40,625 bases of DNA from a virus: IMG/VR virus record IMGVR_UViG_3300027852_000023, positions 1 to 40,625 of that record; one strand, given 5' to 3'. The notes under the pieces were generated by a model. The model made no database searches. It was given only the letters and a program-made list of their open reading frames with translations, and was not told the origin of the DNA. Shown piece after piece: positions 1-40,625 of this stretch. The position numbers were made by a program, and so were the translations under genes. The number at the start of each line of letters is the position of its first letter. Position 1 is the stretch's first letter.

Positions 1-127
1 AAGCCATCGTTAGCGTTCATCCCTCTTGCCTTCGGGAAATTGAATGCACTAAAGTCTTTCGCGCTTCCAGCAGAAAAATCAAACTCAGAGGTATGATATT
101 GTGGTTCATCTCTCCAGCATAAATAAG
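1..127. repeat. Terminal direct repeat, left copy (assembly overlap of a circular genome)
   Basis: Bases 1-127 match 40499-40625 exactly. Both copies lie inside the same beta-helix gene, whose reading frame continues across the join. An exact 127-base overlap is what a de Bruijn assembler using k=127 leaves on a circular contig, so this is more likely an assembly overlap than a packaged terminal repeat. The unit genome is then 40,498 bp. Confidence 0.95.
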
Positions 128-1379
128 CATATAAAGTACCTGCGCCTATGTTCGCAGTATGATCCCATCTCAGACCGGTCTCAGCTGCGCCAAATTGTGA
201 ATCTTCTCTTTCAATCGTAACTACCGCTCCGGTAACATCAGTTATTCGTACTATCTCACCGTTGGGTTTATGCGCTGAAGAAGTTACCCATATTAGATCA
301 CCCGCTACAAAACCAGAAGCATCATCAAAAGTTAATACTGTTGCTCCCTCGTCCCATGCATTACCAGCGTTCCTTGCTGCCCGAATAGCATTTACAACCC
401 TAAAACCACCGCCCCTAAAAGCCTTATTGGTAGTTGTTGCATAAATGTTATTACAGATATAATCCCATCTTGCGGTTACAACTGCTGGAGCAATCATTAC
501 CATTGGCTCGCCCCAGTAATTCGCTGTTGAAGCCGCACCATTTGTCTTATCTTCTGCGTCAGTTACTAATACAATAGGATCGCCTGCCACTCCCTCGCCA
601 TCAGGGAATGGGTAGATATGTACGTGATTATCTCTGCGTAGCGTGTCGTTAAAGTTTGCCCAGAAGTTAGCAGAACCGGCGTCCGTTCTCGCTCCATCCC
701 CACCACCACTGGAGCAGTCTTTTATTGTCCACTCGGTGCAACCAGCGTCAATATTGAATCCTGCCGTTTCATGTCCAACTGAAGTACAGTTATATAAAAC
801 GCCAATGTCCGCACCGTTTGAGATGTTATATCCTGTGGTTGTGGTATTCCCAACCGTGTTGCAGTCGAATAATCTAGTTTGATCACCATCTAAATCCCAA
901 CCAACGGTAGTCTGAAGTCCTGCTGCGCATCTCCTGAAAAGATTGGCCGCTCCGGTTATAAGGAAACCAGTAGCACCCAATTTAACTTTAGTATCAACGA
1001 TATAGTTCTCAATACCTGATACAAGTATGCCAATCTGACCACCTGTTGGCGTTACTGTTAATTTACCCGATACACTGCAATAATTACCAGAAATAGTCAA
1101 TGGTGTCCCACCGTCACCAGCGAATATTGTCCCTATCTCGCACCATAACTCAACCGAATTTTTATTTAATACTATATCTTCCGCATATACTCCGGCTTTT
1201 ATAGTAATAGCATCTCCGGCAGAAGCCGCCCCGATTGCAGCCGTAACTGTTTTCTTTGCTGCCTCTGGGGATAAGCCACTTCCAGTATTGTCTGCTTGTG
1301 CTGCGTCTACATAATAGACATCACCAGTAAATAGCTTATCGTGGTGATTAAGGCGTGTTCCTGGACTATGAACGCTCAT
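1..1379 (-). CDS. Right-handed beta-helix surface/fibre protein, 5' part (gene crosses the window ends)
   Basis: The frame is open from ATG at 1379 to base 1 and continues from 40498 to a TAG at 40423, giving about 484 residues on the circle. The ATG overlaps the upstream stop (ATGA) and has a GGGAG ribosome binding site. After the tag MSVHSPG comes YYVDAAQADNTGSGLSPE and then Gly/Ala/Val-rich rungs, the usual layout of pectin-lyase-like parallel beta-helices in phage fibres and tailspikes. No catalytic residues can be assigned. A second beta-helix gene is at 36074-37036. The likely role is adhesin or fibre on the virion, possibly glycan binding; the exact location is inferred. Confidence 0.82.
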   Translation of the reverse strand, partial: MSVHSPGTRLNHHDKLFTGDVYYVDAAQADNTGSGLSPEAAKKTVTAAIGAASAGDAITIKAGVYAEDIVLNKNSVELWCEIGTIFAGDGGTPLTISGNYCSVSGKLTVTPTGGQIGILVSGIENYIVDTKVKLGATGFLITGAANLFRRCAAGLQTTVGWDLDGDQTRLFDCNTVGNTTTTGYNISNGADIGVLYNCTSVGHETAGFNIDAGCTEWTIKDCSSGGGDGARTDAGSANFWANFNDTLRRDNHVHIYPFPDGEGVAGDPIVLVTDAEDKTNGAASTANYWGEPMVMIAPAVVTARWDYICNNIYATTTNKAFRGGGFRVVNAIRAARNAGNAWDEGATVLTFDDASGFVAGDLIWVTSSAHKPNGEIVRITDVTGAVVTIEREDSQFGAAETGLRWDHTANIGAGTLYAYLCWRDEPQYHTSEFDFSAGSAKDFSAFNFPKARGMNANDG

Positions 1380-1954
1380 GCTACTCCCACTATGCCATAT
1401 TCTCTAATCAATGGACGCCATACTGCTTCAAATATCATAATGAATTCCGCTCCACCACCGTCTGATGTGTAATTGAATCTAAGATAAGTCGTCCCGCCAT
1501 ATTTTGCATTTACTACAAATGGAGCATGTAGGTCCAACCCCACTGCGCCATCAATTATTCTTACCTGATCAGACTTCAATGCAGTTACCGCTGCCGCTGC
1601 CTGATCAACTCTCAAAATAGATGTTTCCAGCGTGCTTGCTGATAAGTCCGTGCCTGCGGCTGAGGTAATCTGCACTACATTTGAATCACCGTCAATCAAA
1701 TCAAAACCAGCAGCCGTTACTGCTGAAACATCAGTAACATCCGTAAATATGCCAGACAGTCTTAGAATCTCAACCCCGCCCTCAATAGTAAACAAGTTCT
1801 CATCCTGCGCACCGTTGGGCGTTCCATCAACTATGAGCCGCTTACTTGCCACTGATCCCAACTGTGAAATATAACAATAAGCAGAATTGACAACCATGTC
1901 CGCGATCTCTGGGGCTGCTAATCCTAACTGGTTTCCTGGTTTATGTACTCCCAT
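1376..1954 (-). CDS. Virion surface protein with VHxPG tag, paralog of 1962-2549
   Basis: 192 residues, with an AGGAGAT ribosome binding site before ATG 1954. It begins MGVHKPGNQL and aligns over its whole length with the protein at 1962-2549: shared LTVDGTP/LIVDGTP, VEILR, LKSDQVRIVDGAVGL / LKSDQVRIIDGAVGL, APFV and the ending IWRPLIESYG / VWRPLIREYG. The two are therefore tandem duplicates. Composition is beta-rich without a signal peptide, as expected for a virion decoration or fibre-base protein. I do not recognise a named family. Its stop overlaps the start of the beta-helix gene, so the two are translationally coupled. Confidence 0.75.
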   Translation of the reverse strand: MGVHKPGNQLGLAAPEIADMVVNSAYCYISQLGSVASKRLIVDGTPNGAQDENLFTIEGGVEILRLSGIFTDVTDVSAVTAAGFDLIDGDSNVVQITSAAGTDLSASTLETSILRVDQAAAAVTALKSDQVRIIDGAVGLDLHAPFVVNAKYGGTTYLRFNYTSDGGGAEFIMIFEAVWRPLIREYGIVGVA

Positions 1955-1961
1955 CTATCTC

Positions 1962-2549
1962 CTAAGCCCAATAAGGGCGTAATCTTCCGTAACTTTCTAT
2001 TAGTGGTCTCCATATAATTTCGTGGCAGATTGTGAAATCTACCGCACTGCCATCCGTTGTGTAACAAAACCTCACTCTTGTATCTGCTCCCTTTTTAGCA
2101 CTTGCCACAAACGGGGCTGATAACTCTAATCCTACCGCACCATCCACAATCCTTACTTGGTCAGATTTCATCAAGTTCACTGCTACGTTGCTTTTATCAA
2201 TCCTGCCCAATAATGACTCAACAGTGGATCCAGTGCAATCTACTCCATCCAATGTTATGTCAACCACATTCGTCTGATCATATAAGTCATAATGTACTTT
2301 TGTTGGTGCTCCTACCACGTTATCCGCATTGTAAAAGAATGACCAGAATCTTAGTATCTCTACCGCTCCCGTTAGCGTTGCAAACTCTACTGTATGCGCT
2401 CCTGCTTGCGGTGTTCCGTCTACCGTCAAGCACTGGATCATCTTTGTACCTGCTCGCCTGTAATAGTCATAAAAACTATCGGAGGCAATTATCATGCCCC
2501 ATTTCCAGCTAAGCGTTACAAATGGATCACCAGGTTCGTGTACTGCCAT
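1962..2549 (-). CDS. Virion surface protein with VHxPG tag, first of tandem pair
   Basis: 195 residues beginning MAVHEPGDPF; the start overlaps the upstream stop as TAATG. It is the paralog of 1376-1954, with strongest conservation in the C-terminal third (KSDQVRIVDGAVGLELSAPF, then WRPLIESYG). The duplicated gene with a conserved core and variable ends suggests two related subunits or alternative receptor-interacting surfaces. Function is inferred from position between head-completion genes and a beta-helix gene; no enzymatic motif is visible. Confidence 0.75.
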   Translation of the reverse strand: MAVHEPGDPFVTLSWKWGMIIASDSFYDYYRRAGTKMIQCLTVDGTPQAGAHTVEFATLTGAVEILRFWSFFYNADNVVGAPTKVHYDLYDQTNVVDITLDGVDCTGSTVESLLGRIDKSNVAVNLMKSDQVRIVDGAVGLELSAPFVASAKKGADTRVRFCYTTDGSAVDFTICHEIIWRPLIESYGRLRPYWA

Positions 2550-2851
2550 TATTCAGTCGCTACTTCATACATCCATTCAACAATATCTCCGTCCTCGGCA
2601 GCATCTATCCACACATCACCGATATTATCTACCTGAAGCCCAATGCTTCCTGCAGGGATAATTGAGAAGTGATTAGCCTCTGCGTCCGCCTTGTTATAGC
2701 CAATATACAAAACTCCTGTATTAGTTGACCTTGCCCTGAATACCGCTATTGCACCCTGTAACACTGCGGCAGCCGTGCATTGCTCTGCCGTTCCCGCTGC
2801 TGCTATTACGTTATGCCCTGTTCTCCATGAAGGAGGATTGAACCCTGCCAT
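2549..2851 (-). CDS. Small beta-rich structural protein (head fibre or decoration candidate)
   Basis: 100 residues beginning MAGFNPPSWRTGHNVI, with an AAGGAG ribosome binding site directly after a terminator-like hairpin. The pattern NTGVLYIGYNKADAE, IPAGSIGLQVDNIGDVWID, GDIVEWMYE resembles small beta-sandwich virion proteins found beside phage head or fibre genes. It is the first gene after the promoter and hairpin at 2861-2971, so its expression may be set separately from the upstream portal block. No homolog is named with certainty. Confidence 0.7.
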   Translation of the reverse strand: MAGFNPPSWRTGHNVIAAAGTAEQCTAAAVLQGAIAVFRARSTNTGVLYIGYNKADAEANHFSIIPAGSIGLQVDNIGDVWIDAAEDGDIVEWMYEVATE

Positions 2852-2860
2852 AATTACTCC

Positions 2861-2893
2861 TTAATAAATAAAGCCCACTCCAAAGGAGCGGGC
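2861..2893 (-). terminator. Rho-independent terminator or leader attenuator
   Basis: On the minus strand GCCCGCTCC-TTT-GGAGTGGGC forms a 9-pair stem (one G-U), followed by TTTATTTATT. It lies about 40 bases downstream of the predicted start of the promoter at 2942-2971 and just before the ribosome binding site of 2549-2851. It may end the head operon, attenuate the surface-protein cassette, or end a short RNA. Confidence 0.75.
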
Positions 2894-2941
2894 AATTTGA
2901 CTGCTCTAATTAATGCAACCTCGAAAGGTGGCTGTTAGTTT

Positions 2942-2971
2942 ATTATATCATAAATTTGACCACACATTCAA
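2942..2971 (-). promoter_or_regulatory. Sigma-70-like promoter with extended -10
   Basis: The minus strand reads TTGAAT (2971-2966), an 18-base spacer, then TGA-TATAAT (-10 at 2947-2942). It overlaps the 3' end of the zinc-ribbon gene. Transcription would start near 2935 and meet first a small ACCU-UUCG-AGGU hairpin and then the terminator at 2893-2861. Confidence 0.6.
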
Positions 2972-3292
2972 TATACTACCCCATCTGCTTTTCGCCGGAT
3001 CACTAAGAAAATAAACAAATCCCTCTTCGTCTGTAATAGGCTCTCCGTATAAAGTAGCTGATGGGATAGGTGGATTCTCTGTTTCTTTTCTTGGGTGACC
3101 ACACGCGCAACAATGCCCTCGGCTATCGTCAAATGTCGAACCAAAGCAATACTCGCAATAAAACTTTTCTGCTGGGCTTTCTGTTATTACCTGTGGTGGA
3201 TTATCTCGCCAGTAATTATTAAAGTCAGACGGCTTTATTACCAATTTTTCTCCTGGCGCGCCGCTAATCGTTCCTGGTATATGCATTGACAT
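2948..3292 (-). CDS. Zinc-ribbon protein with MHIPG N-terminal tag
   Basis: 114 residues. ATG 3292 is chosen because GGAGG lies 5 bases upstream; a longer in-frame start exists at 3310. It begins MSMHIPGTISG, resembling the MxVHxPG starts of the next structural genes. Cys46-x2-Cys49 and Cys61/62-x-Cys64 (CCACGHPRK) form a likely zinc ribbon. A virion-associated role is inferred from the tag and the neighbourhood; nothing indicates DNA binding beyond the ribbon itself. Confidence 0.7.
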   Translation of the reverse strand: MSMHIPGTISGAPGEKLVIKPSDFNNYWRDNPPQVITESPAEKFYCEYCFGSTFDDSRGHCCACGHPRKETENPPIPSATLYGEPITDEEGFVYFLSDPAKSRWGSILNVWSNL

Positions 3293-3303
3293 CACTACCT
3301 CCT

Positions 3304-3396
3304 CTACCAATTATACTTCTTTTCAATCCACCTGACAATAGACAATAATGACGCTCGTAACAACTTGAAGAACGCTTCCCACTCCATGTCGGTCAT
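3304..3396 (-). CDS. Small 30-residue protein coupled to the gp10-like gene
   Basis: MTDMEWEAFFKLLRASLLSI followed by VRWIEKKYNW; the ATG overlaps the gp10-like stop (ATGA) and an AGAGG sequence lies upstream. It fills the only gap between 3393 and 3292. The amphipathic helix with Trp and a basic end resembles the short EWxxFFxLLR-type proteins in many phage head operons. The role is unknown. Confidence 0.6.
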   Translation of the reverse strand: MTDMEWEAFFKLLRASLLSIVRWIEKKYNW

Positions 3397-3809
3397 CTCG
3401 TCAACCTCTTAACCATATTCTCAAAAATGCGATTGACTGCATCTTGCGCTTTCTTGACCACGCCCTGCAAAGTCCACCATCGCCCTTTGTGCATCCATGC
3501 TTGAGGACCAGCACCGCCGCCAGGTTCCTCACTAATAACCCACGGAGCGTAAGGAGTTGGACTTCCTATCGTGCCAATAACATTACTTCCCATTTTCTTC
3601 ACTTTCGTATTTATACTTCCGCCAAGCCCGGCCGCTCCTCTGCGTTCATACGTGCTCCCCACTGGTTTAGGTGGATACGGAGGTACTTTCCCGTGCACAT
3701 AATTGACCGCTTTTCTGGTCGTCTTTTCCATCTCCCTTGTCAATTCAGGGGCAGACAATCGCCTTAGCTTCGCGGTCAGTTTATCAAGTCCGAATATTTT
3801 GATGTTCAT
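3393..3809 (-). CDS. HK97 gp10-like head-tail completion protein
   Basis: 138 residues from ATG 3809, which overlaps the upstream stop. MNIKIFGLDKLTAKLRRL, then a helical region ending in RKAVNYVHGKVPPYPPKPVGSTY, a glycine-rich part and YAPWVISEEPGG are typical of the HK97 gp10 family, small neck proteins that help join the tail to the capsid. The longer open frame to 3842 lies inside the preceding gene and lacks a ribosome binding site. Confidence 0.8.
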   Translation of the reverse strand: MNIKIFGLDKLTAKLRRLSAPELTREMEKTTRKAVNYVHGKVPPYPPKPVGSTYERRGAAGLGGSINTKVKKMGSNVIGTIGSPTPYAPWVISEEPGGGAGPQAWMHKGRWWTLQGVVKKAQDAVNRIFENMVKRLTR

Positions 3810-4402
3810 TCTGGCTCTTTCACAACTGGCTGTATCCAACATTTGCAGTTTACGTGTGCTGGTGGTCTATCGTATTCCATCCCTGCAAAGTCGTGAAACA
3901 TAGCGTCAAGAGGTACTTCCTGCCCCTCTAAACTAAGACATATCGGGCAAACATCAGTTCCGGCGGTATTCCACCTTTTATAATCCACTACTCCGCTATT
4001 CTTATACGTTTCCAAGTTCCCCCCTGCATAAGCATTGGTAACTTCTGTTACCGCTATCCGTTTTGCCCGAACCTTGCCAAACGCCTGAAGAAACTGCGGG
4101 TCTTTTTCCAATTCTCTCAACGGCTCACCGCTTGCAATCCAATCAGCAACCTTATCCTGTACCATCTTCTGCGTTGTCGTGGTAATCAGTGTTACTTCTT
4201 CCGCCGCGAAGTTCCGCGCCCAACTTACCACTGCGTCATTCACAAGTCCCCAATGAACGCCAATACCGATAGCAGCCTGTTTTCCCATATCAACTGCTAA
4301 TTTAGTTATGAGCGGCAGGAGGATAGCGTACAGTATGTCAGCTTCATCCATCCAGAAAAAGGAATCAAAGACTGATTTATTTTCTACAACTTTTCCGGCC
4401 AT
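3806..4402 (-). CDS. SPP1 gp7-like head morphogenesis protein
   Basis: 198 residues. The C-terminal half carries the family signature: RIAVTEVTNAYAGGN, WNTAGTDVCPICLSLEGQ, and RPPAHVNCKCWIQPV with a Cys-x2-Cys / Cys-x-Cys set. This family (SPP1 gp7 / Mu gpF-like) is a minor capsid protein near the portal involved in DNA ejection or assembly. It is shorter than many members, with a brief helical N-terminus. The start overlaps the upstream gene by 19 bases. Confidence 0.85.
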   Translation of the reverse strand: MAGKVVENKSVFDSFFWMDEADILYAILLPLITKLAVDMGKQAAIGIGVHWGLVNDAVVSWARNFAAEEVTLITTTTQKMVQDKVADWIASGEPLRELEKDPQFLQAFGKVRAKRIAVTEVTNAYAGGNLETYKNSGVVDYKRWNTAGTDVCPICLSLEGQEVPLDAMFHDFAGMEYDRPPAHVNCKCWIQPVVKEPE

Positions 4403-27668: not shown

Positions 27669-28220
27669 TTATTCGCCTGTATAGTCTTTCTGTAACTCCC
27701 AAACTCTTTCCCAATCATAATATTCTCTAAAATATTCTGGTGTATTTTCAGGAACGCCTCTACTATGTTCTAAAATTGAAGCGTATAATTCAACATATCC
27801 ACCCCAACACATAATCCCTATATCATTACAAGGATTATCTCCAATGCCAGGAAAATTATAAATCCTGTCTTCTATTTTGTCTAGATTTCCGGTAGATATA
27901 AATATTTCTTCACGGTAATAATCTACTATCTCAGCCCATTCTTTAGTTTCGCTAAACCGATTATTTTCCTCGTAATCAAGTTTATGCCCTATTTCATGTA
28001 AACATATCCACTTATCAAAACAAACTATTCCCCCATTATGAGGAAAATATGCCCCAGCAATACCATCTGGTAATTTACTTGGCAATGATAGTTCTTCATC
28101 AATAACAGCGGTTAGGGTTGGCGATATAGTTGGTTTAGTAATTTCATAAACAGGCGTACAGTTTATTAATAATACAAACGATAAAACAATCAGTCTTTTC
28201 ATATTGCTATATTTTATCAT
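27669..28220 (-). CDS. Lipoprotein-like HExxH zinc metalloprotease candidate
   Basis: 183 residues. A basic N-terminus and hydrophobic helix (MKRLIVLSFVLLINC, Cys21) look like a lipoprotein signal, although Asn before the Cys is unusual. CLHEIGHKLDYE carries HExxH (His75, Glu76, His79), and YVELYASILEH (Glu144) could supply the third zinc ligand, as in gluzincins of the lethal-factor/Pro-Pro type. TAATG overlap with the upstream gene; a second ATG is at 28202. A secreted protease inside a fibre cluster could trim a host surface layer or act on infected cells; this is inference. Confidence 0.62.
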   Translation of the reverse strand: MIKYSNMKRLIVLSFVLLINCTPVYEITKPTISPTLTAVIDEELSLPSKLPDGIAGAYFPHNGGIVCFDKWICLHEIGHKLDYEENNRFSETKEWAEIVDYYREEIFISTGNLDKIEDRIYNFPGIGDNPCNDIGIMCWGGYVELYASILEHSRGVPENTPEYFREYYDWERVWELQKDYTGE

Positions 28221-28849
28221 TACAATCTCACTAGCCCTAATTCTGCATTAATTACATTCAAGTTCCCGCCGCTATTCTGCCAAGTCTTGAGTGTTATAAC
28301 GTCAGCGGCTAAAAACGGTCTTACCCTACTTCCAAAGGTTATAGTTGTATCTCCATTGATGGCAGGTATTCGCACTTCCGAAAAACTTATCTGTGGTCCG
28401 TTTACACAAAGAACAATCTCTCTAAACCCAGTAGCATTTGAGGCATATTCAACATGATAATTAATTAAATAATTTCCATCAAAATTCGCAGGAATTGTTA
28501 TCTTATTCGCTACGGGGTTGGCAACAAACTCATCTATATCCACGTCCTCAATTGTCAGTGTTACCTCTGTATATGTAGCGTCAGGAATTGCCCTTGGTGT
28601 TGTATCACTAATTAGCGCGTTTAATAACCCCCCCCATTCTGGAGCGGTTTCACCAGCACTCACCCTTTGCACTTCTCCCACCGTGCCTATTGCCAACCGC
28701 GCTAATGTATCTGCCGCAGTAGCATGAATCATGTCCCCGGCATTAGTGTATGGCCAATGTGCAACCTCATTGTCCCTCAAGTAGGTGTTCAAATAGGCAG
28801 CGGTTACAAGCTGCCCAGTTGTGTGTGTAGGAATCGCTGTTCTTGCCAT
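28220..28849 (-). CDS. C1q/TNF-like surface protein, second of pair
   Basis: 209 residues beginning MARTAIPTHTTGQLVTAAYL NTYLRDNEVAHWP. The C-terminal half (PANFDGNYLINYHVEYASNA, IVLCVNGPQI, ADVITLKTWQNSGGNLNV) is a jelly-roll of C1q/TNF type used by trimeric phage fibre tips. It is a paralog of 28850-29494, with matching ends (QNSGGNLxVxNAxLxL). Confidence 0.8.
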   Translation of the reverse strand: MARTAIPTHTTGQLVTAAYLNTYLRDNEVAHWPYTNAGDMIHATAADTLARLAIGTVGEVQRVSAGETAPEWGGLLNALISDTTPRAIPDATYTEVTLTIEDVDIDEFVANPVANKITIPANFDGNYLINYHVEYASNATGFREIVLCVNGPQISFSEVRIPAINGDTTITFGSRVRPFLAADVITLKTWQNSGGNLNVINAELGLVRL

Positions 28850-29494
28850 TTAATCTCCCAACATCAACGATAATGATAACGTTGCATTTTCTACATCTAA
28901 GTTCCCGCCACTATTTTGATAAACGCAAATAGTTATATAATCTGCAGCGTCTGCGTGTATGATTGCCACTCCAGATATACACGTATCGCCGCCATCAACG
29001 GCTTTCATCCTTATTATTGTATTATCTATATCTACCAGCCCAGCGTTCTTTCTTAATTTGACGGTTCTATATCCTACGGCACTGGCATCAATTTCCACGT
29101 AATAATTAGCAAGATAATAGCCATCAAAACCAGCCGGAATAGTTATTCTATCATTAACAGGAGTAGCAACAAAGCCGTCTATATTTATATAAGATGTATC
29201 CATTTCAACAAGCGTATCCGCTGCTGTTCCAACTGTTGTGTCTACCGCAGCATAAATAGAACCGTAAATAATCCCACCCCACACTGGAGCATCAGCTGCC
29301 GCATTCACCCTCTGAATTTGTCCAGCAGTGCCTATTGCTTGACGGGACAATGTATCCCCAGCAGCAGCATAAGCCTTATCACCTACGGCGGTAAATGGCC
29401 ATTCCGCAGCCTCGTTGTCTCTCCAGTAGGTGTTAGAATGAGCGGCTGTAATAACTTGGTTCGTGACGTACAACGGGATGGCTGATCGTGCCAT
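28850..29494 (-). CDS. C1q/TNF-like surface protein, first of pair
   Basis: 214 residues beginning MARSAIPLYVTNQVITAAHS NTYWRDNEAAEWP. PAGFDGYYLANYYVEIDASA, RTVKLRKNAG and YITICVYQNSGGNLDV form the jelly-roll. Same layout as 28220-28849; the duplication allows two receptor-binding variants. The N-terminal 45 residues are the best conserved part, fitting a common attachment site on the tail. Confidence 0.8.
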   Translation of the reverse strand: MARSAIPLYVTNQVITAAHSNTYWRDNEAAEWPFTAVGDKAYAAAGDTLSRQAIGTAGQIQRVNAAADAPVWGGIIYGSIYAAVDTTVGTAADTLVEMDTSYINIDGFVATPVNDRITIPAGFDGYYLANYYVEIDASAVGYRTVKLRKNAGLVDIDNTIIRMKAVDGGDTCISGVAIIHADAADYITICVYQNSGGNLDVENATLSLSLMLGD

Positions 29495-36073: not shown

Positions 36074-37036
36074 TTAGGTCACCATTTCTACTGCAACACC
36101 ACTAAGATCAACGGGCGTTACAACGTCCATATTACCCATTAGGACGCCGCGATCATTCGCATCCCATTTAGTAAAGCCATAACCAATGCAGTCCTTAAGG
36201 AACATGCGCCGATGCGCTGGTGCTCCAGCAGGCATTACAAACGCTGAATCCATATCTGTTCCACTGGTATTTATGAATTTGCAATTATCGAAAAGCATAT
36301 AACGATCAACTGCGCTCAGTGCTTCCCATTCAACAAACATTGCGCCGCCTGCGCCTGCGTATGAGATGAAATTGCAATCCTTAAAAACATTTCGCGGGGT
36401 TCCGCCGATTATTGCAAGGCATCTCATTCCAGCCGCCTGAGCAATCGTGTCAACACCAATGGTACAGTTTACAAACTTATGCTCGCCCTCAGAACCAACT
36501 AAGCGAAGGCTTGCACCACCGTCTATTGCCTGGCTCGCATGTCCGCCGCCAGCAAAGTGAACATTCTCAAAATAGTTACGTCCACCAGAAACTTGAGCAT
36601 TGACATTTGCAACCGCTTCATCTACACCCTGGAAGATATAGAAGTTCTTGAAAACACACCCGCTCCCAGTTATATTGAGTAGCGGCGTTACGCCGGTTGT
36701 AGTCTCATTGTGAATCCTTGCTCGCTGTGCTGCCATTACTGGTGCACATGCGCCAATTAAGTGTGTGTAGCTTTTTGCCCATGTTAGCGTAGCAGCTAAA
36801 GTTGCTCCTGTTGCTCCGCCCAAATAAATTACTTTGTCATTTGCCCCATCGGTGCAGGCGGCGTAAGCTATCGGAATAGTTGCCATTGCCTTATCCCATG
36901 ACATTCCATCATTATTGTCATCGCCATTTGCCGGGTCAACAAAATACTCTGTGCCTTTCCCGCTTAACATCCCATCTCCACCATAGATGACCAGATTTCC
37001 AGCCATCCATTTGGAGTATAGTCTCATATCAGTCAT
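36074..37036 (-). CDS. Right-handed beta-helix virion protein
   Basis: 320 residues from ATG 37036 (AAAGGAG upstream; the frame to 37057 has no signal). MTDMRLYSKWMAGNLVIYGG is followed by GTEYFVDPANGDDNNDGMSW DKAMATIPIAY and repeated rungs (VFKNFYIFQG, NYFENVHFAGG, HKFVNCTIGV, NVFKDCNFIS, LFDNCKFINTSG). It is a pectin-lyase-fold protein of the same kind as the gene crossing the window ends (FVDPANGDDN versus YVDAAQADNT). Likely head fibre or surface adhesin, placed right after decoration genes. Confidence 0.82.
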   Translation of the reverse strand: MTDMRLYSKWMAGNLVIYGGDGMLSGKGTEYFVDPANGDDNNDGMSWDKAMATIPIAYAACTDGANDKVIYLGGATGATLAATLTWAKSYTHLIGACAPVMAAQRARIHNETTTGVTPLLNITGSGCVFKNFYIFQGVDEAVANVNAQVSGGRNYFENVHFAGGGHASQAIDGGASLRLVGSEGEHKFVNCTIGVDTIAQAAGMRCLAIIGGTPRNVFKDCNFISYAGAGGAMFVEWEALSAVDRYMLFDNCKFINTSGTDMDSAFVMPAGAPAHRRMFLKDCIGYGFTKWDANDRGVLMGNMDVVTPVDLSGVAVEMVT

Positions 37037-37057
37037 AATAAACTCCTTTATATACAA

Positions 37058-37080: not shown

Positions 37081-37554
37081 TTAATCACTAATCATCGAGG
37101 GTAACCCATCGCCTGCATAACGTGGCAGGACTTGATAAGTTACGGCTACAATGTTTGAAGCGTTTGATGCGCCTACGGCTGCGGCTAAGCAGTCATAAGC
37201 CCCAAGGATTGAAGGATCAATCACAAAGACAACCAGCTTGTTGGCTAATCCTACGTCAAGCGTGTAGTTTGCTGCGTCTGTTGCTCTTGTGAATATGTCA
37301 GTCGTGCAATCCAGGTTATAGTAAATCGGGAAGGTTGCCGTAACAGCCGCCTCTCCAGTTGCAGCAACATCAGTTGCTTTTGTCAGACTGAGAACCGCTT
37401 GTGCAGCGTTTCCCTGCGTCATGTGAAAGATAACCAGCACCTTGTGCGCCAGTTTTAGGCTAATGTAATCACCAGCCAAAGCTCCCGCATTAGTCTGCGG
37501 TTCTAGTGCTTGAATTAATCCCACTTCTTCCGGGATCATAAAGTTTTTACTCAT
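37081..37554 (-). CDS. Decoration-like capsid protein, second of tandem pair
   Basis: 157 residues, same length as the neighbour at 37567-38040, and clearly homologous: KLAHKVLVIFHMTQGNAAQA / KLAHKIWVVFHMAQGHAAQS, YNLDCTTDIFTRATDAANYT and ASNASNIVAVTY. Beta-sandwich pattern without enzyme motif. Encoded directly downstream of the major capsid protein, the usual place for decoration or cement proteins. Confidence 0.75.
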   Translation of the reverse strand: MSKNFMIPEEVGLIQALEPQTNAGALAGDYISLKLAHKVLVIFHMTQGNAAQAVLSLTKATDVAATGEAAVTATFPIYYNLDCTTDIFTRATDAANYTLDVGLANKLVVFVIDPSILGAYDCLAAAVGASNASNIVAVTYQVLPRYAGDGLPSMISD

Positions 37555-37566
37555 GTTTTATCTCCT

Positions 37567-38040
37567 TTAATCAATAATCACCGATGAAGGTGTCGCCTGT
37601 TTGTAGCGATTGTCTAAGACGTAGGTACAGCCAACGATATTCAAAATGTTGGAAGCTCCGGCATAACCTTTTACACAATCAAAACCAGATGAGAACTGAG
37701 AAGCGTCAAACTGAAATACTACCAGTTTTGTTTTCAATGCAACATCAAGCTCGTATGTTGCCGCGTCTGTTGCCCTCGTGAAAATATCGGTATCACAATC
37801 CAGGTTGTACCAGATTGGATGCGTTTCTGTAACTACTGCTGCATCCGTTCCGGCTACATCCGTTGCTTCATACAGGCTTAATGTGGATTGTGCGGCGTGT
37901 CCTTGTGCCATGTGAAATACAACCCATATCTTATGCGCCAACTTCATACTCACCCAATCACCGGCAATGGCCGCAGTGTTTACCTGTGGCTTAAATCCGT
38001 TTATTAATAGTCCGCCTTGCGGTAATTGTAGGTTACTCAT
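37567..38040 (-). CDS. Decoration-like capsid protein, first of tandem pair
   Basis: 157 residues starting in a TAATG overlap with the major capsid stop. LINGFKPQVNTAAIAGDWVS MKLAHKIWVVFHMAQG and YNLDCDTDIFTRATDAATYE define the family shared with 37081-37554. Likely expressed at high level together with the capsid protein. Virion location is inferred. Confidence 0.75.
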   Translation of the reverse strand: MSNLQLPQGGLLINGFKPQVNTAAIAGDWVSMKLAHKIWVVFHMAQGHAAQSTLSLYEATDVAGTDAAVVTETHPIWYNLDCDTDIFTRATDAATYELDVALKTKLVVFQFDASQFSSGFDCVKGYAGASNILNIVGCTYVLDNRYKQATPSSVIID

Positions 38041-39341
38041 TATCGTGTCTCGATCCCAATGAACGGGCTGAGTGTTACTGCACTATTCGCTGGGGTTAAT
38101 GTTCCTGGCCATGAAGGCTGTCCGTCCACTCGATATACGAACCGGAAGCAAGTTTCATCAGTCACAAACTGAACGTGAATCGATGTTGCTTTCTGCATGG
38201 TGCCTTTGTCAATCAGCCAATACTGTGAGAGGTCGGCAAAAATAATATCGCCTACCGTTCCGACAGTCTGGCAATGCTCAACAGGAATCACCGGGCGGCC
38301 ATATAGTGTCGCATACGGTGAAGCGGATAATCCGCCTGCAGGCAAGTAAACTGGTACACCAGTCGCGCCCACTGCCACATACATACTGTGAAGCTGTGGC
38401 TCACAATCCTGATTGATCAGCCATACGCCATTCTTGCGAAGTGGCGCAAACATTCTTGACCACATATTTACGATATTCTCGCTAACAATAGTGTCAGCAG
38501 GCTGTCCTGCTTCTTCTGCGATTGCGATAAACGATGGGGAATTGACAATACCTAAAGGCTGTCCTGCACCCGTTCCGTTGATAATCGCTGCTTCCACCTG
38601 GTACGTAAATTCCATTTGGAACGCCCAAGAGATGATTGATTCTAATGCAACCGCGTCTTGAAGTAACTCGTCAGTAGCGTAGCAAAGACCAATCAGCTTG
38701 TTTAGTTCAAGTAAGATCTGGCCGAATGTTGGATTGCTTGCGACTTTCGTTGCACCTTCTGCTTTCCAATAAGCCAATACTCCACCCCAACGAGAGCCGT
38801 CTGCTCGACTGCCTTCGTCAAGATAGTTTGCCCGTAGGCTGTTTGAGTTTGCTGAAATAGGCATCCTCTTAACCCGGCTCATAATTTCGCCTTCAGCGAA
38901 CACAAGTTTAAGCATTTCTGATGCAAAATCTTCCTGCACCAAGAACCCACCATCGGCGGGTACGCCTTCGCTCATTCCGGTCTGCTTCATTTCTACCAAG
39001 CGGGGGTCCATATAACCACGCCCGGATGATTTGGCAATACTTTGCAGTTGCTCGCCTAAGCTCTTGAAGCCCATAGACCCTTGAGAAGGAGGAGCGTCTG
39101 CTGCCATACCTTGTATAGCGGCTTTTGTTCCTAATCCTTCAGTTAAGAAAGCTGCCTGCTCTTCTAGTTGCATAGCGACTTTCAGCTTTCCTGTTAAGTC
39201 AGTAGCTTCTGCTACCAGATTACTAATTTCGTCTGCAACCTCGGACGGCATTTCATCTTCCTTGCCCTCCCATTCATCAGAAATTAGGCTGGCTTTGCCA
39301 ACCACTGCTTGTAGTTTTTCTCTAATACTTTCAATGTTCAT
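38040..39341 (-). CDS. Major capsid protein, HK97 fold
   Basis: 433 residues. Residues 1 to about 110 are helical and charged (MNIESIREKLQAVVGKASLI, KLKVAMQLEEQAAFLTEGLG), resembling the delta/scaffold domain removed by the protease. The mature part begins near SLGEQLQSIAKSSG and contains GGFLVQEDFASEMLKLVFAE, RVKRMPISANSNSL, AYWKAEGATK and GGGLSASPYATLYGRPVIPVE-like LYGRPVIPVEHC, standard for HK97-like capsids. Encoded right after the protease. Confidence 0.95.
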   Translation of the reverse strand: MNIESIREKLQAVVGKASLISDEWEGKEDEMPSEVADEISNLVAEATDLTGKLKVAMQLEEQAAFLTEGLGTKAAIQGMAADAPPSQGSMGFKSLGEQLQSIAKSSGRGYMDPRLVEMKQTGMSEGVPADGGFLVQEDFASEMLKLVFAEGEIMSRVKRMPISANSNSLRANYLDEGSRADGSRWGGVLAYWKAEGATKVASNPTFGQILLELNKLIGLCYATDELLQDAVALESIISWAFQMEFTYQVEAAIINGTGAGQPLGIVNSPSFIAIAEEAGQPADTIVSENIVNMWSRMFAPLRKNGVWLINQDCEPQLHSMYVAVGATGVPVYLPAGGLSASPYATLYGRPVIPVEHCQTVGTVGDIIFADLSQYWLIDKGTMQKATSIHVQFVTDETCFRFVYRVDGQPSWPGTLTPANSAVTLSPFIGIETR

Positions 39342-39353
39342 TTCAATATCCTT

Positions 39354-40415
39354 TTATAATGCTTCAATTTGTTTTTTAATAAGCTCTAATTTACTCAATG
39401 CAAGAAAAGTGAGTGCGGGGTTAGCTTTATCGGCTTCCCACGGCTCGGCTGTTTCCATCGCCTCTTTCAAATTAAAGAATAGCGATCCGATATTATCCAC
39501 CCGACTGCTGAAGTATCCAGCTAACCCGCGCTCAATCTCTTCTGCTGATAGAGATGTGGTTTTACTGATGGCTTCAATAAACTTAAAATCAGGTGGTATC
39601 TTATCGAATTGTTTATAATGTTCTGCCAGATGGTCATATACTTCCTTTCTATCTAACTCAGGAATATCACAACCCGGCTTCATTAGTTCGGTCATGGCAA
39701 GTGCCACGCCCATCCATACTGCCGGCCCAACTCTGTCCATAACTATTCTGTGATGTCCTAACTTCACTTCACTACCGGCGTAAGCGAAATGACTTTTTAT
39801 TATGGTTTGTTCTGTTTCTGATAATACTTCCCAGCTTTCTTTAGTAAAATCATCAAGCTCAATCGGGACCCACTCGCCATCATCTGTACCAGTGTCCTTG
39901 TATTGGACGGCTGATTTAGATGCAACTGTGGCAGGGTTCATTCCCCAATTCACGTCTGAGGTATCCCATAACCTCAGTTCACGCAAATTTCTAACTAACT
40001 GGCCTTTCCCCTTGACTTCCTCATAGTCAAATTTTATGGGGTCAAAACCAAATGACATTTCCTTGATAGCACCTGTGAGGATACCTTGCAGTATTTCTTC
40101 TCCTCTTGGGGTATCCAGGTATTCCCGTTCTACAAGCAGTCCGCCCGTAGCTTCCGGGAACTTCTCTTTGATAGTATCCGGTAATTTACTCGCGGTTACT
40201 TCCTGTAAACTATTGATAACCGCAACCGGAGGATCACTGAAATTATGCTGCCATAAGTGGCGGATGTGATCCATGCCTTCCTTGATGGTCTTTTTAAACG
40301 CACCTTTATGGATCCGATCTGCGCCCAGATCAATGTTGCCGAAGATGGCAGCAAAACCAGTGACCCTTCTCCCGTCTACTTCTTTTGTTTGGCTTATGTG
40401 TGATTTATATTCCAT
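39354..40415 (-). CDS. Prohead protease (HK97/U35 family) with C-terminal HHxxxx domain
   Basis: 353 residues. MEYKSHISQTKEVDGRRVTG FAAIFGNIDLGADRIHKGAF, LWQHNFSDPPVAV (catalytic His) and GAIKEMSFGFDPIKFDYEEV (catalytic Ser in EMSFGF) form the serine protease in residues 1-165. The C-terminal half carries KLGHHRIVMDRVGPAVWMGV ALAMTEL and KEVYDHLAEHYKQFDKIPPD, a fused domain often found behind phage proteases and probably a scaffold. It matures the capsid shell. Confidence 0.92.
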   Translation of the reverse strand: MEYKSHISQTKEVDGRRVTGFAAIFGNIDLGADRIHKGAFKKTIKEGMDHIRHLWQHNFSDPPVAVINSLQEVTASKLPDTIKEKFPEATGGLLVEREYLDTPRGEEILQGILTGAIKEMSFGFDPIKFDYEEVKGKGQLVRNLRELRLWDTSDVNWGMNPATVASKSAVQYKDTGTDDGEWVPIELDDFTKESWEVLSETEQTIIKSHFAYAGSEVKLGHHRIVMDRVGPAVWMGVALAMTELMKPGCDIPELDRKEVYDHLAEHYKQFDKIPPDFKFIEAISKTTSLSAEEIERGLAGYFSSRVDNIGSLFFNLKEAMETAEPWEADKANPALTFLALSKLELIKKQIEAL

Positions 40416-40422
40416 AGTTCTC

Positions 40423-40625
40423 CTAATCCTTATAACAAACTGTCATATCAAATCCAGCACCATTTGTGCCGTCTGTGCTGTTCTGTATTCTTACAATCAA
40501 GCCATCGTTAGCGTTCATCCCTCTTGCCTTCGGGAAATTGAATGCACTAAAGTCTTTCGCGCTTCCAGCAGAAAAATCAAACTCAGAGGTATGATATTGT
40601 GGTTCATCTCTCCAGCATAAATAAG
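40423..40625 (-). CDS. 3' end of the boundary-crossing beta-helix gene
   Basis: Same frame as 1-1379: residues ...EFDFSAGSAKDFSAFNFPKA RGMNANDGLIVRIQ ... MTVCYKD, stop TAG at 40425-40423. Bases 40499-40625 duplicate 1-127. Eight bases separate the stop from the protease start. Confidence 0.88.
   Translation of the reverse strand, partial: YLCWRDEPQYHTSEFDFSAGSAKDFSAFNFPKARGMNANDGLIVRIQNSTDGTNGAGFDMTVCYKD
40499..40625. repeat. Terminal direct repeat, right copy
   Basis: Exact copy of 1-127; see that entry. Confidence 0.95.

Follow-up and report, generated by a model that had tools for sequence, protein, structure and literature searches.

Anchors that carry variable bodies are already known from virus particles. 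In lambda, KHP30 and Pam1, the extended N-terminus of the cement protein contacts the capsid protein, either at the E-loop or at the N-arm (PMC9698820). T5 pb10 and its relatives possess a conserved N-terminal capsid anchor, while their bodies diverge between related phages (43% versus 4% identity) (PMC5292684). The adenovirus fibre is plugged into the capsid as a surface protein by a short conserved N-terminal peptide, FNPVYPY (PMC8156859), and in PRD1/PR772 the two vertex proteins P5 and P31 are alike in their N-terminal part and sit at the same site (PMC6750898). The phage locus described here, in which a seven-residue tag heads several unrelated folds encoded in one head module, is distinct from every one of these systems as far as the open papers searched are concerned.

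With the cement and decoration proteins, including lambda gpD and those of KHP30 and Pam1 (PMC9698820), the locus has in common a small protein, here of predicted beta-sandwich-like fold and predicted flexible N-terminus, whose gene belongs to the head module, but there the arm belongs to one protein species whereas here one short peptide stands on several unrelated bodies per genome. The conserved, putatively anchoring N-terminus with diverging bodies recalls pb10 (PMC5292684); the pb10 anchor is, however, a folded alpha-helical domain encoded by one gene per phage, and not a 7-residue peptide present in one to four genes per genome. The short conserved N-terminal peptide of the adenovirus fibre (PMC8156859), whose binding is established where ours is proposed, bears no sequence relation to the tag and serves a single type of body, the fibre, whereas P5 and P31 (PMC6750898), likewise different proteins with a common N-terminal part, are homologous over an entire domain (about 125 residues) instead of sharing a short tag. 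On the sequences at hand, the tag is probably an N-terminal anchor peptide that would dock exchangeable accessory proteins on one virion site.

The window, by which we mean the whole analysed stretch of 40,625 nucleotides, represents a circular or circularly permuted tailed-phage genome of 40,498 bp with a 127-bp direct terminal repeat (bases 1-127 are identical to 40499-40625). Its genes follow the order TerS, TerL, portal, MuF, HK97-gp10-like, the cassette of tagged genes, prohead protease and HK97-type capsid protein (Table 1). Because the end repeat makes the genome circular, the fourth tagged gene can be regarded as complete, ending at 40423. A preliminary description had reported four neighbouring genes with a common start and differing bodies, and the starts MSVHSPG (1379), MGVHKPG (1954), MAVHEPG (2549) and MSMHIPG (3292) are all found at these places on the minus strand, with the consensus M-[SGA]-[VM]-H-x-P-G. 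The genes do lie in the same segment, bordered by the neck/MuF genes on one side and the prohead protease gene on the other, but an untagged gene for a 100-aa protein separates the first from the second. Likewise, the bodies are of three unrelated kinds and not four (a zinc ribbon, a pair built of a helix and a beta-sandwich, and a beta-helix), since the second and third tagged genes are paralogs.

Table 1. Features of the tagged-gene cassette and its borders in the window, and composition of the corresponding cassettes in related phages.
Feature	Position	Strand	Basis
Mu F-like minor head protein	3806..4402	-	Pfam/PHROG
HK97-gp10-like neck/tail-completion protein; upstream border of the cassette	3393..3842	-	Pfam/PHROG
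Tagged gene 1: MSMHIPG, then LVIKPSDFNNYWRDN segment and CxxC...CxxC zinc-ribbon-like body, 114 aa	2951..3292	-	
Tag codons MSMHIPG	3272..3292	-	
Untagged 100-aa gene within the cassette	2549..2851	-	
Tagged gene 2 (pair A): MAVHEPG, then helix and beta-sandwich, 195 aa	1962..2549	-	
Tag codons MAVHEPG	2529..2549	-	
Tagged gene 3 (pair B): MGVHKPG, 192 aa; 43% identical to gene 2, its paralog	1376..1954	-	
Tag codons MGVHKPG	1934..1954	-	
Tagged gene 4: MSVHSPG, then beta-helix-like body and C-terminal beta domain, 484 aa	1..1379, continuing at 40423..40625	-	
Tag codons MSVHSPG	1359..1379	-	
Prohead protease (Peptidase_S78); downstream border of the cassette	39354..40415	-	
HK97-type major capsid protein; candidate docking partner	38040..39341	-	
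Window cassette: zinc ribbon, pair A, pair B, beta-helix			
L017 cassette: pair A, pair B, beta-helix protein with ~285 residues deleted (tag HTSG)			
L016 cassette: pair A, pair B, A2 family (MTRHSPG)			
L025 cassette: pair A, pair B, A2 with longer N-terminus (MTVHNPG)			
L014 cassette: lone A2 gene (MTVHTPG)			
L007/L024 cassette: pair B and beta-helix			
L023 cassette: pair A and pair B, then untagged genes in the last slot			
L131 cassette: pair-type protein (MTTHRAG) and 426-aa beta-helix-like protein (MTGHRAG)			

The ATG at 3292 lies inside a longer TTG-started ORF and is immediately preceded by GAGGAGG, and at TAATG the start of pair A and the stop of the 100-aa gene overlap. Since several starts in the cassette overlap upstream stops and their Shine-Dalgarno sites are weak, translational coupling is likely, and the conservation might be thought to serve translation, through the codons near the start or an RNA element that the genes of the operon have in common. 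This is highly improbable, as the amino acids stay the same while codon choice and upstream DNA differ between the genes, and as the operon also contains genes without the tag, namely those for the 100-aa protein, the protease and the capsid protein. Neither the pair nor the zinc-ribbon bodies found a match in Pfam or PHROG, and the beta-helix protein gave a weak beta-helix match in Pfam, below the cut-off, and a weak tail-protein match in PHROG. The LVIKPSDFNNYWRDN stretch behind the tag of the zinc-ribbon protein resembles (V/I)TAAxxNTYxRDNE, found at the N-terminus of two adjacent proteins of the tail region that are encoded at 28220-28849 and 28850-29494 on the minus strand.

From amino-acid composition, H.PG at the offset of the tag is expected in 0.004 genes of the window, and the probability of at least three genes starting with it, counting the three unrelated bodies, is about 1e-8. 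Among the 1,091 distinct ORFs of all fetched loci, 21 begin with M..H.[PAS]G (near-identical copies counted), and 20 of these belong to this cassette. The remaining one, MAGHNAG in L030, comes from another phage lineage with a different head module and is located directly behind a relative (39%) of the 100-aa gene of the window.

Scans of viral contigs yielded about nine members of the lineage, which were compared from the gp10-like gene to the protease. Across these relatives the tag is present on two bodies beyond the three of the window, and the modular exchange proposed at the outset finds support, the body in the last slot being swapped with the tag retained. The slot behind pair B is occupied by the beta-helix protein (window and L007), by a version of it lacking the helix (L017) or by the unrelated A2 family (L016 and L025), and the gene is tagged in each case. 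The short form in L017 retains its first 52 residues together with the C-terminal domain and carries the tag HTSG rather than HSPG; compared with a long form (L017:6138-6737 versus L041:171-1625), about 285 central residues are missing in frame. The zinc-ribbon gene was seen only in the window and in one near-identical contig. In profile comparisons, the alignment of the pair with the A2 (L014) family, and that of the pair with the beta-helix family, is limited to residues 1-8, and the A2 protein of L025 is 72% identical to the beta-helix-like protein of L131 over the first 32 residues with no similarity beyond. Non-homologous bodies thus begin with the same N-terminal peptide, as would be expected of a short docking peptide. 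Close relatives of the cassette genes were not found in named phages, nor was any relative found in the GTDB genomes scanned for prophages or a host; a weak match to the pair body occurs in an uncultured 485-kb phage (LR745208.1), where the tag is absent.

The distribution of the A2 (L014) family, which is tagged in three of three cases inside the lineage and in none of eight outside it (Fisher p = 0.006), shows that the tag follows the phage and not the body, the eight homologs in other phages starting with MIDETGR... or otherwise and never with the tag. In the portal tree, a fully supported branch (100/98) has the cassette-bearing phages on one side, so that the tag goes with the portal lineage. 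The preliminary description had named tagless homologs that still assemble on virions as evidence that would speak against docking. Homologs lacking the tag do exist, but the phages that carry them belong to other lineages, whose head genes differ, and therefore they are no test of docking in this lineage. Sister phages whose portals or proteases are 47-58% identical have no tagged genes, so that the docking site, if there is one, does not have to be filled. Such genes are absent from the more distant phages L018/L050, L051, L049, L019, L020 and L053, in which the protease gene comes directly, or almost directly, after the gp10-like gene. When gene lengths were compared by eye, no insertions special to the cassette-bearing phages were evident in the portal, gp10-like and capsid proteins.

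H4 and G7 are invariant in the 21 tagged genes, which is in part by construction since the set was picked by the pattern M..H.[PAS]G, and position 6 is proline in 17 of them; homologs within the lineage that were found through their bodies carry the tag too. Between body families, the codons for H4, P6 and G7 show 205 synonymous and 66 nonsynonymous differences as opposed to 90 and 1,096 for codons 8-14, counts that are non-independent because the tagged genes are related. The tag is therefore more conserved than the adjoining sequence, as would be expected of a docking peptide, while the residues just behind it are not kept. Since the histidine and the glycine stay while their codons vary synonymously, selection acts on the peptide. 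This bears on the view that the tag is a functionless relic of recombination or gene duplication, with bodies having been joined behind a common gene start. Such an origin would fit the paralogy of two of the four tagged genes, the fact that third-slot bodies join on directly after the 3' end of pair B and the 32 initial residues common to two different bodies, but it is unlikely considering that histidine and glycine remain constant despite synonymous differences in the tag codons while residues 8-14 change freely, and that both tagged genes of one genome (L131) read HRAG with different codons (AGG GCT and AGA GCA). The shared HRAG, a single case, fits an adaptation of both genes to one partner.

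Constraint on the peptide could also stem from a metal site. Position 2 is S, T, A or G in all 21 tagged genes (background 47%), for which reason removal of the initial methionine by methionine aminopeptidase is predicted; this would leave X-X-His with an invariant histidine at mature position 3, the Cu(II)/Ni(II)-binding (ATCUN) arrangement, and a metal or metal bridge would then be what matters, with or without docking. We regard this as quite unlikely, since the ATCUN arrangement requires the histidine alone and leaves the invariant G7 and the near-invariant P6 unexplained; a search of open papers turned up no phage structural case, which is no proof of absence.

The anchor reading further depends on where the proteins reside. 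From the position of their genes, with MuF and gp10-like genes upstream and protease and capsid protein genes downstream, we infer that the tagged proteins are virion proteins, and a place in the head gene module near the capsid protein and protease genes is also characteristic of cement and decoration proteins. The cassette directly precedes the protease gene, which would also suit a recognition signal for processing or co-packaging (e.g., by the prohead protease or a scaffold) in place of an anchor in the mature particle. That alternative is improbable, given that a related protease occurs in sister phages without tagged genes and that the tag, located at the extreme N-terminus, leaves little to be cut off.

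Other genes of the head segment show features of their own. Directly behind the capsid gene, two paralogous 157-aa proteins (MSNLQLPQGG... and MSKNFMIPEEV...) are encoded at 37567-38040 and 37081-37554 on the minus strand, which are likely decoration proteins and exist as a single copy in some relatives. A second conserved N-terminal stretch, approximately S[KR]W[LFMY][AK]GN[LM]xIYxG, heads the protein encoded at 36074-37057 (minus strand) and recurs in L014, L016, L017, L023, L024, L025 and L047, in a looser form in L016 and L047. The proteins carrying it are encoded behind the capsid and decoration genes and their bodies differ among relatives; this stretch is possibly another anchor.

A moderately confident model of the pair (12 sequences, pLDDT 60) predicts residues 1-6 to be disordered, followed by a helix at 9-33 and a beta-sandwich. 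Cement proteins are among its best structural matches (KHP30 with Z 7.7, KHP40 with 7.2, Pam1 with 7.0 and GP4 with 6.0), values that are middling and not above those of unrelated rows; other viral jelly-rolls match at similar Z, and cement-like scores below 8 can reflect a common arrangement. Naming of the pair model by Foldseek was dropped because of low TM values (about 0.2-0.4); the model of the beta-helix protein was discarded at pLDDT 34 (3 sequences).

The docking peptide envisaged in the preliminary description holds with regard to the short tag common to unrelated bodies, the constraint at the peptide level, the association with the phage lineage instead of the body and the exchange of bodies behind the tag, while virion location, binding and partner rest on inference. 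According to this anchor model, each protein from one operon segment would expose M-[STAG]-x-H-x-P-G at its free N-terminus, followed in most proteins by a short helix and then by the variable body, be it a beta-sandwich, a beta-helix or a zinc ribbon. The anchor would dock on one kind of head site, for which the exterior of the major capsid protein is the most likely candidate, in the manner of cement-protein N-arms, with the neck/portal vertex as second choice, so that the bodies would be displayed and could be exchanged behind it by recombination. A more far-reaching version, tentative and on balance doubtful, is that of a universal 7-residue plug, where one virion site would take any protein starting with M-[STAG]-x-H-x-[PA]-G, the mature X-X-His possibly binding a metal, and unrelated surface proteins would be mixed and exchanged on one symmetric site.

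If the anchor model is true, the tag would constitute a minimal natural attachment device by which a phage head displays unrelated proteins, one discovered from sequence alone and clearly read out as seven shared residues on several folds, and it would account for the swapping of accessory head proteins without loss of assembly. For metagenomic phages, the tag provides a short testable motif by which unknown genes beside head genes may be sorted.
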